The notes below the pieces were generated by a model. That model searched no databases. It saw only the letters and a list, made by a program, of their open reading frames with translations, and was not told the origin of the DNA. Made by a program: the position numbers and the translations under genes. A stretch of DNA of 47,943 nucleotides from Armatimonadota bacterium (lineage in GTDB: Bacteria > Armatimonadota > Armatimonadia > Armatimonadales > Armatimonadaceae). Positions 4,935-32,818 of the stretch are shown here, one piece after another (the first letter of the stretch is position 1; every line of letters begins with the position of its first letter). The stretch lies in NCBI GenBank assembly GCA_026392155.1, contig JAPLCP010000193.1, positions 1-47,943 on the forward strand, given 5' to 3'.

Positions 4935-5014
4935 AGTTTTCTTCTGTTCCTTCTCGGTTTCTCCTCCCCACGACGCGCCCTTGCGGGACCGAGATTTATC
5001 GTGAGTGTGACATT

Positions 5015-29173: not shown

Positions 29174-29815
29174 CTATTTTATCGCCAAGCCGTTGTCCTC
29201 ACCGAGCTTGGCAAACTGCCCAATCGCACTATCGTAGACAAAGACCTCGCCCGTCTCGAATTTATACATCCAGCCATGCAGGTTGATCAGCCCGCGCGAG
29301 GCACGGCTCGCGATAATTGGCAGCGTCCGCAGGTGCTCTAGCTGCACCAGCACGTTCTCCTCCGCTGTGGCGGTGTAGAGTTCTTCCCCCGAGAGGTGAC
29401 CGTAGTGGTCTTTAATAATCTCCGCCGTAGAGTCGCAGTGGGAGAGCCACCGCTTGAGCGTCGGCAATGAGTCCAAGCTCTGGGGATTGAGCACGCCTTT
29501 CATCGCCCCACAGTGGGTGTGGCCACAGACGATAATATCTTTAACGCCCAGTACGCCTACGGCAAACTCGACAGCGGCAAGCTCTCCGTTATTAGAAGTC
29601 CCGTAACACGGAATCACATTGCCCGCATTTCGGACGATGAAGAGCTGGCCGGGCTTGGCATTGGTGATTAGGTTCGGGTCAATGCGCGAGTCGGAGCAGG
29701 TGATAAAGCAGGCCTCAGGACTCTGCCCTCCCGCAAGCCGCTCAAAGAGCTCTTGTTGCTGAGCAAAGCCCACGTTCTGAAAATAGTGCACACCATCAAT
29801 TAGTTTTTGCATCAT
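29174..29815 (-). CDS. Beta-class carbonic anhydrase
   Basis: The start is the ATG at 29815 with AGGA just upstream; a longer frame to 29893 overlaps the SulP gene. The 213-residue enzyme interconverts CO2 and bicarbonate. Zinc ligands are visible: Cys40 with Asp42 and Arg44 in Cys-Ser-Asp-Ser-Arg, and His99 with Cys102 in Cys-Gly-His-Thr-His-Cys-Gly-Ala. It follows a SulP transporter by 22 bases and precedes the LytS kinase by 4. SulP plus beta-carbonic anhydrase neighbours usually point to bicarbonate uptake or supply. Confidence 0.95.
   Translation of the reverse strand: MMQKLIDGVHYFQNVGFAQQQELFERLAGGQSPEACFITCSDSRIDPNLITNAKPGQLFIVRNAGNVIPCYGTSNNGELAAVEFAVGVLGVKDIIVCGHTHCGAMKGVLNPQSLDSLPTLKRWLSHCDSTAEIIKDHYGHLSGEELYTATAEENVLVQLEHLRTLPIIASRASRGLINLHGWMYKFETGEVFVYDSAIGQFAKLGEDNGLAIK
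29176..29181 (-). promoter_or_regulatory. Possible internal -10 box for the LytS-LytTR pair
   Basis: TAAAAT on the minus strand overlaps the carbonic anhydrase stop codon and lies 6 bases before the GTG of the kinase gene. It could start a leaderless transcript for the two-component pair. The A/T-rich stop context may produce it by chance. Confidence 0.25.
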
Positions 29816-29837
29816 TGATCCTTGCTTTATATAGCCT

Positions 29838-31370
29838 CTACTTGCGCTTAACACGAGGTTGGCCACTCTCGGCTTCGTGGTACCAAGCCTCATGCTTTTC
29901 GTCTATGTCCACGGTTCCGCCGGTTCGCTCATGCGCGTGTCGCCAGCTATGGAGCGCTTCAAAGGCGGCGTGATCCATAAACTCCACCATCAGGTCAATG
30001 TCTCCCTTGGCTCCGGGCGGAATCTTGGCCAGCTCCTTGGTAAGCTGAGGAACCGAGAGGAAGTTAAGCGCTCCCTCGATCTTGAGGTGCCAGCGCTCCT
30101 CGTCACCTTCGCCACGGCGCTCGATCTCTGCCTTAAAGTAGGCAAGGCGGCGGAGCAGCAGGAACACCGCAAGCCCGATTCCCAGCCCCACCCCTGCCAG
30201 GAGATTTAGAAACGCCACACCCAGGGCAGTCACCGCGTAGACGATAACCTCACGGTGAACATGGAGCTCTTTAATATGGTGGACATTGATCAGGCGGACG
30301 CCCACATGGATCAGAAGCCCAGCAAGCGCCGCGAGGGGAATCTTATTGAGCTGTGGCGTTGCCACTAGGACAAAGAGAATGATCCAGACCCCATGCAGGA
30401 TCGCTGACGCCTGTGTCTTGCCACCTGCGGTCACATTGGCCGCGCTTCGCACAATCACTCCCGTCACGGGGAGCCCACCGAGAAGTCCTGAGACAAAGTT
30501 GGACGCGCCCTGGCCGATCAGCTCACGGTCGAGGTTGGCGCGTGGCCCACTGTGAAGACGATCCGTCGCTACCGCACAGAGAAGCGACTCGATGCTGGCC
30601 ACCACCGCAATGGTCAATGCAGCGATCACAAACCCACCAACATCGTTGGGGAGCTGGGGCATCTGGAACTGGAAGAGAGGGCCATCCTTGATCGCGACGT
30701 GTGGAGCCTCGGTGAAAAATAGATTGCCCAAGATGGTTGCCACGAGCACGGAGACCAGCGCACCAGGGATCATGCGCACCTTTGCAGGAAGATAGCCCCA
30801 GCCAATCAGAACTCCCAGCGTGATCAGCCCAAGAATGGTCGCATGTGTCTCCGGCGTAGTGGGATTGGTGAAGAGCTGTCCGACCTCGGTGGGAATCGCC
30901 TGGAGGTTCAGCCCTGCCGCAGGCCGAGGCTTGCCCCCGAGCATCACATGGAACTGTGCGAGCGCAATCGTGATCCCAATCCCCGCGAGCATCCCGTGGA
31001 CAACGGCAGGTGAGATCATCAGACAGGCGCGTGCTATCTTGAGGGCTCCAAAACAGAGCTGAAAGACACCAGCGGCCACAGAGATCGCGCACATCTGGGT
31101 CCAGCCGAACTTCTGCACCATGCCGTAGACCAGCACAGTCAGCCCCGCAGCTGGCCCTGTGACTTGTAGTGGCGCTCCCGCGATCAGCCCGGCGACAATC
31201 CCTCCGACGATACACCCGATCAAACCCGAGGCAATCGGTGCCCCCGATGCGTTGGCGATCCCGAGCGCCAGTGGTACGGCGACCAGAAACACCACGAGAG
31301 AGGCGGGCAGATCTGCTGGGGAAAAATAGAAGCGCCGCGCCCCTATTGTCGATTTTTGAGAGTCCATCAC
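29838..31370 (-). CDS. SulP-family anion transporter (bicarbonate candidate)
   Basis: The 510-residue protein has the SulP core: Asp-Leu-Pro-Ala-Ser-Leu-Val-Val-Phe-Leu-Val-Ala-Val-Pro-Leu-Ala-Leu-Gly at about 19-36, Gly-Pro-Ala-Ala-Gly near 72-76, and about 11-14 membrane helices to roughly 400. The C-terminal 100 residues form a STAS-like domain (about 415-500) that keeps Leu-Lys-Ile-Glu-Gly-Ala-Leu-Asn-Phe-Leu-Ser. SulP proteins carry sulfate, bicarbonate or other anions. The carbonic anhydrase 22 bases downstream favours bicarbonate. It is divergent from a second SulP gene. Confidence 0.9.
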   Translation of the reverse strand: MMDSQKSTIGARRFYFSPADLPASLVVFLVAVPLALGIANASGAPIASGLIGCIVGGIVAGLIAGAPLQVTGPAAGLTVLVYGMVQKFGWTQMCAISVAAGVFQLCFGALKIARACLMISPAVVHGMLAGIGITIALAQFHVMLGGKPRPAAGLNLQAIPTEVGQLFTNPTTPETHATILGLITLGVLIGWGYLPAKVRMIPGALVSVLVATILGNLFFTEAPHVAIKDGPLFQFQMPQLPNDVGGFVIAALTIAVVASIESLLCAVATDRLHSGPRANLDRELIGQGASNFVSGLLGGLPVTGVIVRSAANVTAGGKTQASAILHGVWIILFVLVATPQLNKIPLAALAGLLIHVGVRLINVHHIKELHVHREVIVYAVTALGVAFLNLLAGVGLGIGLAVFLLLRRLAYFKAEIERRGEGDEERWHLKIEGALNFLSVPQLTKELAKIPPGAKGDIDLMVEFMDHAAFEALHSWRHAHERTGGTVDIDEKHEAWYHEAESGQPRVKRK

Positions 31371-31500
31371 CTTCTTCTTACTCGTGTCTTCCGCAATCTG
31401 CTACTGAGATTCGCTCAGACGTACCAAAGCGCCGCCCAAGTGTTCCAAACTCAAGATGACTGTCTGGTTTGACTGCGTTCTAGGCAACTTGGGAAACGGG

Positions 31501-31506
31501 TACAAT
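31501..31506 (+). promoter_or_regulatory. -10 box upstream of the second SulP gene
   Basis: TACAAT matches the -10 consensus at five of six positions and would start transcription at about 31513, giving a leader that contains AGGAG at 31533-31537. If correct, an ATG at 31505 in another frame would not be transcribed. Confidence 0.35.
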
Positions 31507-31544
31507 GTACCTGTGGGCGGATTCCCCCCACCAGGAGTTTCTAC

Positions 31545-32789
31545 ATTATAGACACCCTCAAGACACCCTCGCTCAAATCAGATATACTCTCCGGCTTTCT
31601 GGTCTTTCTCATTGCTCTGCCCCTATGTCTTGGAATCGCAAGTGCAAGCGGAGCCCCTCCGATCTCCGGAATCCTCACCGCCATCATCGGCGGAATTGTT
31701 GCACCATTTCTGGGAAGTGCTCGCTTCATCATAAAAGGCCCTGCTGCCGGAATGATCGTGATTGTGCTCGCTGCGATTACTGATCTAGGCCAGGGCGATC
31801 TGTCCGTAGGATACCCACGCATGCTCGCGGTTGGTGTGGTCGCGGGGGGGCTGCAGATTGTTCTTGCGCTCTTTCGAGTGGGCAACCTAGGGCGACTCAT
31901 GCCGACCTCCGTGGTGCAGGGGATGCTGACAGCCATTGGAGTGATTATTCTCTCTAAACAAGTCCATGTGCTGCTTGGAGTCAAGCCCCTCAGTCAGGAG
32001 CCGCTTCGGCTGCTACTGGAGGTTCCCTATAGCATTTCACACTCCGAAGGTTCCGTCTTTCTCGTCGGGCTGGTTGCGCTGGGAATACTCATTTTGGTGC
32101 CGCTTCTTAGTAAGAGACGAACGGCGCTAAAGGCAATTCCTCTACCTCTGATCATCTTACTTGTGACAATCCCGCTGGCTCTGAGTCTACACCTAAGCGC
32201 TCGATCTTTTGTCAAGCTTCCACCGTCGCTACTTGCCGCAATCACTTTCCCCGATTTTTCTCAGCTCGCCAGTGCTGTCTCGCTCAAGCACATTCTGATG
32301 TTCACTCTAGTCGGCTCTCTTGAGTCGCTGCTCACAGTCTCTGCCATAGACTCACTAGACCCCCAAAAGCAAGAGAGTGATCTCAATCGCGACTTAATTG
32401 CTAACGGAGCAGCCAACACGCTTGCAGCCTGTCTCGGAGGAATCCCCATGATCTCCGAAGTGGTTCGTAGCAAGGCCAATCTGGACAACGGAGCCAAGAG
32501 TGCATGGGCCAACTTCTTTCATGGGCTATTTCTTCTGCTCACCGTTGCCCTGGTTCCCGGTATTCTCCAGAAAATCCCTCTGGCGGCACTGGCGGCCATG
32601 CTGATTGTGATTGGATTTCGCCTCGCCTCCGTGCAACAGTTCAAGAGTGCCTGGCAAGCGGGGAAAGTCTCGTTCTTTCTCTTTGTCACCACTCTTGTCG
32701 TCACACTGACAACAGATCTGCTTCTTGGCGTGGCCGTAGGGCTGGTGCTGAAGCTGATCCTGTCACGGTCGAAATGGGACTCTAAATAG
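31545..32789 (+). CDS. Second SulP-family transporter without STAS domain, probable ATT start
   Basis: Family homology runs well upstream of the first in-frame ATG (31752). From about 31560 the frame reads Lys-Thr-Pro-Ser-Leu-Lys-Ser-Asp-Ile-Leu-Ser-Gly-Phe-Leu-Val-Phe-Leu-Ile-Ala-Leu, the standard SulP front. No ATG, GTG or TTG lies in frame there. AGGAG (31533-31537) is 7 bases before an ATT at 31545, the best start (414 residues). The protein covers the full membrane core (Gly-Pro-Ala-Ala-Gly, Ser-Leu-Glu-Ser-Leu near 260) but stops after the last helix with no STAS domain. A sequencing error changing ATG to ATT is the alternative. It is divergent from the first SulP gene. Confidence 0.8.
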   Translation: MIDTLKTPSLKSDILSGFLVFLIALPLCLGIASASGAPPISGILTAIIGGIVAPFLGSARFIIKGPAAGMIVIVLAAITDLGQGDLSVGYPRMLAVGVVAGGLQIVLALFRVGNLGRLMPTSVVQGMLTAIGVIILSKQVHVLLGVKPLSQEPLRLLLEVPYSISHSEGSVFLVGLVALGILILVPLLSKRRTALKAIPLPLIILLVTIPLALSLHLSARSFVKLPPSLLAAITFPDFSQLASAVSLKHILMFTLVGSLESLLTVSAIDSLDPQKQESDLNRDLIANGAANTLAACLGGIPMISEVVRSKANLDNGAKSAWANFFHGLFLLLTVALVPGILQKIPLAALAAMLIVIGFRLASVQQFKSAWQAGKVSFFLFVTTLVVTLTTDLLLGVAVGLVLKLILSRSKWDSK

Positions 32790-32818
32790 CCTGTAACGCT
32801 GACGTAACGGCGGAGTGC

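Follow-up and report, generated by a model that had tools for sequence, protein, structure and literature searches.

A SulP transporter gene without a standard start codon in an Armatimonadota bacterium, probably damaged at its front end

The window analysed here is a stretch of 47,943 nucleotides from an Armatimonadota genome, and it contains a SulP transporter gene whose reading frame has no standard start codon where its homology to the family begins. The question raised by this locus is where translation of the gene starts, or once started. A sequence-only reading had proposed that the gene starts at an ATT, and that a short overlapping frame just upstream acts as a leader peptide setting the transporter level through termination and reinitiation. 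After following up these claims we rank this second to what we consider most likely: an otherwise ordinary SulP gene, lacking the STAS domain, whose 5' end has recently been broken (or was mis-assembled).

The gene body and its genomic setting

The following features define the gene and its surroundings:
31545..32789, plus strand: SulP transmembrane-domain gene (PF00916, AlphaFold2), 414 codons plus TAG, without a STAS domain
32769..32777, plus strand: TCGAAATGG (Ser-Lys-Trp), what is left of the C-terminal tail TCGAAGTGG of the orthologues, marking an in-frame internal loss of STAS
31464..32779, plus strand: stretch that the congener G001 lacks, with imperfect 15-nt direct repeats at its borders
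29838..31370, minus strand: divergent SulP paralogue that matches STAS weakly and is conserved in G001

A Pfam profile search matched the product to Sulfate_transp (PF00916, E 4e-57), and AlphaFold2 predicted a complete transmembrane domain (pLDDT 87), the best structural match being the BicA transmembrane domain (6ki1, TM-score 0.80), with SLC26Dg (5iof) also among the top folds. In SulP/SLC26 anion transporters a C-terminal STAS domain is usual, not universal. The present ORF ends a few codons past the last TM helix and its orthologues are longer by about 105 residues; all indels relative to the closest orthologues are in frame, including the removal of the whole STAS region. Since the tail DNA TCGAARTGG is present in the orthologues too, the STAS region was deleted from within the gene without a change of frame, and a 3'-truncating insertion was rejected as the cause on the same ground. 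Another STAS-less member of the SulP clade was seen in a Myxococcales MAG (L039, 3001-4300).

Under a two-ratio codon model omega was 0.046 on the gene's own branch versus 0.051 elsewhere, and fixing omega at 1 was worse by 16 lnL units, with synonymous sites saturated and the branch length at its bound. Eight violations of nearly invariant residues were counted in the product, a number that falls inside the span seen on other long branches, and relative rates were only slightly raised. The codon model, the violation counts and the relative rates rule out a long-standing pseudogene, the gene body showing no loss of coding constraint; the start region carries no standard start and a frame-changing duplication. 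Selection on the gene until recently implies that the start defect is recent, rescued or artefactual, and any decay must be very recent, because 1.24 kb of sequence shows no further disabling change and omega is about 0.05.

The congener G001 has the same neighbours and lacks the SulP gene. Imperfect 15-nt direct repeats bracket the gene (window 31449-31465 and 32779-32793), and in G001 a single repeat copy (L078 9525-9539) is found with no gene, a junction that fits recombination between the repeats as the footprint of either a deletion or an insertion. In the tree the gene is sister to orthologues of the same family (support 99/91), which would favour a deletion in G001 as the more economical history; its atypical GC3 (7th percentile) would fit an acquisition instead. 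Its absence from G001, more economically read as a loss, points to a gene that the genus can do without beside the divergent paralogue and the carbonic anhydrase. The minus-strand carbonic anhydrase and the second SulP adjoin each other (window 29174-31370) and are divergent from the gene studied here, a pairing that suggests bicarbonate transport.

Candidate start codons

Three features lie at the beginning of the SulP frame:
31545..31547, plus strand: ATT, candidate near-cognate start, one codon upstream of the relatives' ATG column
31548..31550, plus strand: ATA, alternative near-cognate start from the homologue alignment, overlapping TAG 31549 as ATAG; infC of the same genome starts at ATA
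31533..31537, plus strand: AGGAG, Shine-Dalgarno (SD)-like, with a spacing of 7 nt to ATT 31545 and of 10 nt to ATA 31548

From a TGA at 31470 the frame is devoid of ATG, GTG and TTG until ATG 31752, which is codon 70 (69 codons after ATT 31545). The Pfam match starts well ahead of this ATG, and homology to relatives sets in at most about 10 codons past the ATT. The earlier observations of SulP homology upstream of the first in-frame ATG with no standard start, and of AGGAG seven bases before the ATT, were thus confirmed. The choice of ATT as the start keeps these two points in its favour but loses on alignment: the four homologues nearest to the gene (61-64% identity, Armatimonadota of the same family) all have their ATG aligned gap-free with ATA 31548, at -23 before the LPL motif, with the ATT at -24. 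An ATG in relatives at this codon had been named as a finding that would count against the ATT; the four closest relatives do have an ATG, but in the ATA column, one codon further on. Nor does TAG 31549 overlap the ATT, as had been stated, since A31548 intervenes and the overlap is with the ATA.

The near-cognate codon is not conserved, being ATG in those four homologues and missing with the gene from the congener, and no close orthologue was found among 291 genomes of the phylum. By eye, no similar upstream sequence was seen before the relatives' starts. An RNA structure or riboswitch was rejected, there being no Rfam match and at best a hairpin with z -1.8. Start statistics were drawn from a 312-kb sample of the genome: an SD of 5 nt or longer, spaced 3-13 nt from the start, precedes 13% of gene starts (chosen by coding). 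For random positions the figure is 1.9% and for ATTs 2.7%, and the SD at the ATT/ATA is mildly informative. No other convincing startless gene with a strongly coding N-terminus turned up in this sample; judged by eye, the remaining rows of that scan resemble shadow frames or a Gly-rich repeat.

The upstream GTG frame and the 11-bp duplication

Ahead of the candidate starts are:
31501..31506, plus strand: TACAAT, read from the sequence and genome-wide -10 statistics as the -10 box of a leaderless promoter, with GGG ahead
31513..31515, plus strand: GTG, putative former start codon of a leaderless mRNA; it follows TACAAT at 6 nt, the modal spacing in the genome
31513..31551, plus strand: 12-codon frame VGGFPPPGVSTL-stop, containing Pro-Pro-Pro and ending at TAG 31549-31551, proposed severed N-terminus
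31524..31529, plus strand: C6 run, in which a one-base length change or slippage would alter, by frame arithmetic, which upstream start is in frame
31550..31571, plus strand: 11-bp tandem duplication AGACACCCTCA/AGACACCCTCG, period 11, whose +11 shifts the gene's frame relative to the upstream region

All but the C6 run and the duplication had been described by the sequence-only reading, and the TACAAT, the GTG six bases on, the Pro-Pro-Pro frame and its TAG are all there; what finds no support is their use as a leader peptide. Of 182 gene starts, 44 have a mini-ORF of 8-30 codons whose stop overlaps them, and first-order random sequences show the same in 16% of cases. Because they are at chance level in this genome, the mini-ORF is uninformative and the leader-peptide argument has no weight by itself. 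The -10 box tells more. With starts picked without any promoter information, a strong -10 hexamer lies 5-8 nt before 27 of 195 gene starts (14%) versus 0.6% of all ATG, GTG and TTG trinucleotides, and the modal spacing is 6. TACAAT-GTG is an informative signal: TACAAT-GTACCT-GTG 31513 matches it, including the GGG that precedes the -10 box, and the neighbouring HAD-phosphatase gene has TACAAT-GTGCT-GTG, with a 5-nt spacing. Because of this match, the GTG frame is more likely to be the gene's own former N-terminus. In the test for a leaderless gene the -10 spacing was found at GTG 31513, but the GTG frame stops at 31549 and is not the frame of the gene.

Leaderless starts sampled in this genome (L100-L119 and the window) are mostly without a clear -35, and G-runs often precede their -10 boxes. 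A sigma70 promoter scan found no -35/-10 pair at TACAAT. Leaderless genes in bacteria are marked by TANNNT about 10-12 bp upstream (PMC3160421), and in Deinococcus 6-7 bp separate the motif from the ORF (PMC12340547); within the literature searched, leaderless genes in Armatimonadetes were the subject of no paper.

The duplication sits directly after the mini-ORF, between GTG 31513 and the frame of the SulP gene. Tandem repeats of such size number 13 in the 312 kb, about 1 per 24 kb. As 11 is not a multiple of 3, an upstream start of any kind changed frame. The offset from GTG 31513 to the gene frame at 31545 is 32 nt, a distance divisible by 3 once 11 bp are taken off (1/3 by chance), and homology with relatives extends back only into the second copy (KTPSLKSD versus TTPPSKSD). 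A frameshift joining the gene to an upstream ATG frame had been named as another finding that would overturn the ATT start; something close to it was found for the GTG frame, not for the frame of ATG 31505. The latter was rejected as the original start, its frame differing from that of the gene by an amount for which the duplication does not account.

We incline, by no wide measure of confidence, to the view that the 5' end of the gene is broken, with its leaderless N-terminus severed by the duplication. The original leaderless mRNA would have begun at or near GTG 31513, just behind the -10 box, and the GTG frame would formerly have continued into the transporter. The 11-bp duplication would then have thrown the two out of frame, so that the GTG frame now meets TAG 31549 after 12 codons, the apparent leader peptide would be a cut-off N-terminus, and the transporter frame would be left without ATG, GTG or TTG over its first 69 codons. 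Translation from AUA 31548 or AUU 31545, aided by AGGAG, would be residual and weak at most. We infer that translation formerly began at GTG 31513, that the duplication did the damage and that the gene is now expressed little or not at all.

The leaderless signature, the position of the duplication, the frame arithmetic, the chance-level mini-ORF, the dispensability of the gene and the base rate of startless genes together tip us, just, towards a broken start. Against it, the starts of the closest homologues fall in the ATA/ATT column, and most of these genes leave no room for an N-terminal extension; the AGGAG at 7-10 nt would have to be put down to chance (2-5%). An open GTG frame before the duplication also requires A at 31549 (now T), as in the second copy (31560), and hence one extra substitution; the coding score of the GTG frame over its 12 codons is poor (-4.6 bits), there is no good -35, and the frame agreement carries its 1/3 chance.

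Other explanations and known systems

The initiation factor gene infC also bears on start codons in this organism. Near 4991 of its contig C109 (L098), and likewise in L083-L099, infC has a conserved ATA start (ATC in one genus) behind GGAGG, and in this family a start at the downstream ATG would truncate a conserved N-terminus. The conservation of this codon in the family indicates that the cell very probably initiates once at an ATA/ATC-type codon, in infC.

A native near-cognate start of the infC kind, with AUA 31548 or AUU 31545 read behind AGGAG and held low by IF3 discrimination, is the main rival account of the SulP gene, possible though rather unlikely. It draws on infC itself, on SDs like this AGGAG being about sixfold enriched at gene starts, on the ATA standing in the relatives' ATG column, and on an intact ORF with omega about 0.05, violations within the long-branch range and a predicted fold that is intact. 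Precedents are known: in S. aureus the AUU start of cvfC1 and the AUA starts of ccpN and citZ have strong SDs and give about 10% of AUG expression (PMC13009471), and the sigR GTC start is repressed by IF3 (PMC5472188). The SD here is, however, only 5 nt long, no relative shares the codon and there is no close orthologue, at most a few such starts are expected per genome, and both TACAAT-GTG and the 11-bp duplication are left as coincidences. Initiation at AUA or AUU could yield some transporter, either by native design or as the residual expression of a damaged gene.

We consider it improbable that the duplication, the length of the C6 run or the start codon is an assembly or consensus error and that the real gene has an ordinary start. 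The assembly is a draft of 228 contigs, and a one-base change in the C6 run would by itself put another upstream start in frame; the surrounding frames are otherwise clean, however, and short-read assemblies seldom produce tandem duplications or C6 errors. A study of Deinococcus leaderless genes did meet out-of-frame starts linked to a -10 box, and suspected sequencing errors (PMC12340547).

Very unlikely, in our estimate, is that the split gene survives through termination-reinitiation or recoding, in which ribosomes from the leaderless GTG 31513 would pause at Pro-Pro-Pro and, after TAG 31549, restart at the AUA, or would slip by -1 on CCCCCCA and so enter the transporter frame. The ATAG overlap, the AGGAG within the mini-ORF and the slippery-like C6A would suit it, as would a predicted RNA hairpin (window 31533-31559) with AUUA in the loop and AGG paired, but this fold is not significant (z only -1.8), stop-overlapping mini-ORFs are at chance level and conservation cannot be shown. 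Least credible of all is a combination in which the 12 codons severed by the duplication now serve as a leader ORF, with TAG 31549 coupled to AUA 31548 and a STAS-less transporter expressed at a low level; if true, a leader peptide and a near-cognate start would have been caught arising from a frameshift.

The SulP gene thus probably has a damaged front end rather than a new control device. What passes for an ATT start with a leader peptide can turn out to be a leaderless start in the wrong frame, and where leaderless genes abound in a genome, a -10 box just ahead of an "upstream ORF" warns of a frame break or an annotation error. If translation from AUA or AUU were proven, one transporter would join the short list of near-cognate-start genes and would show a gene surviving the loss of its start.

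Compared with BicA-like SulP/SLC26 proteins (PF00916; PDB 6ki1, 5iof), the product has the full transmembrane domain in common, and its gene has a carbonic-anhydrase gene and a second SulP as neighbours; STAS is gone by in-frame deletion with the C-terminal tail retained, and a 16-residue loop is missing. With the near-cognate class (infC AUU/AUA/AUC, E. coli pcnB AUU, S. aureus cvfC1/ccpN/citZ and Streptomyces sigR GTC; PMC5472188, PMC13009471) the gene shares the lack of a standard in-frame start and an SD-like AGGAG before its ATT/ATA; it differs in a codon that no relative conserves, in an SD of only 5 nt, and in an upstream leaderless start and a duplication that allow a different reading. 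Leaderless genes of Deinococcus-Thermus and Actinobacteria (PMC12340547, PMC3160421) have the -10 box 6-7 bp before the start, as in the TACAAT, 6 nt and GTG found here, but, unlike in those genes, the GTG frame closes at its twelfth codon and does not match the frame of the SulP gene.
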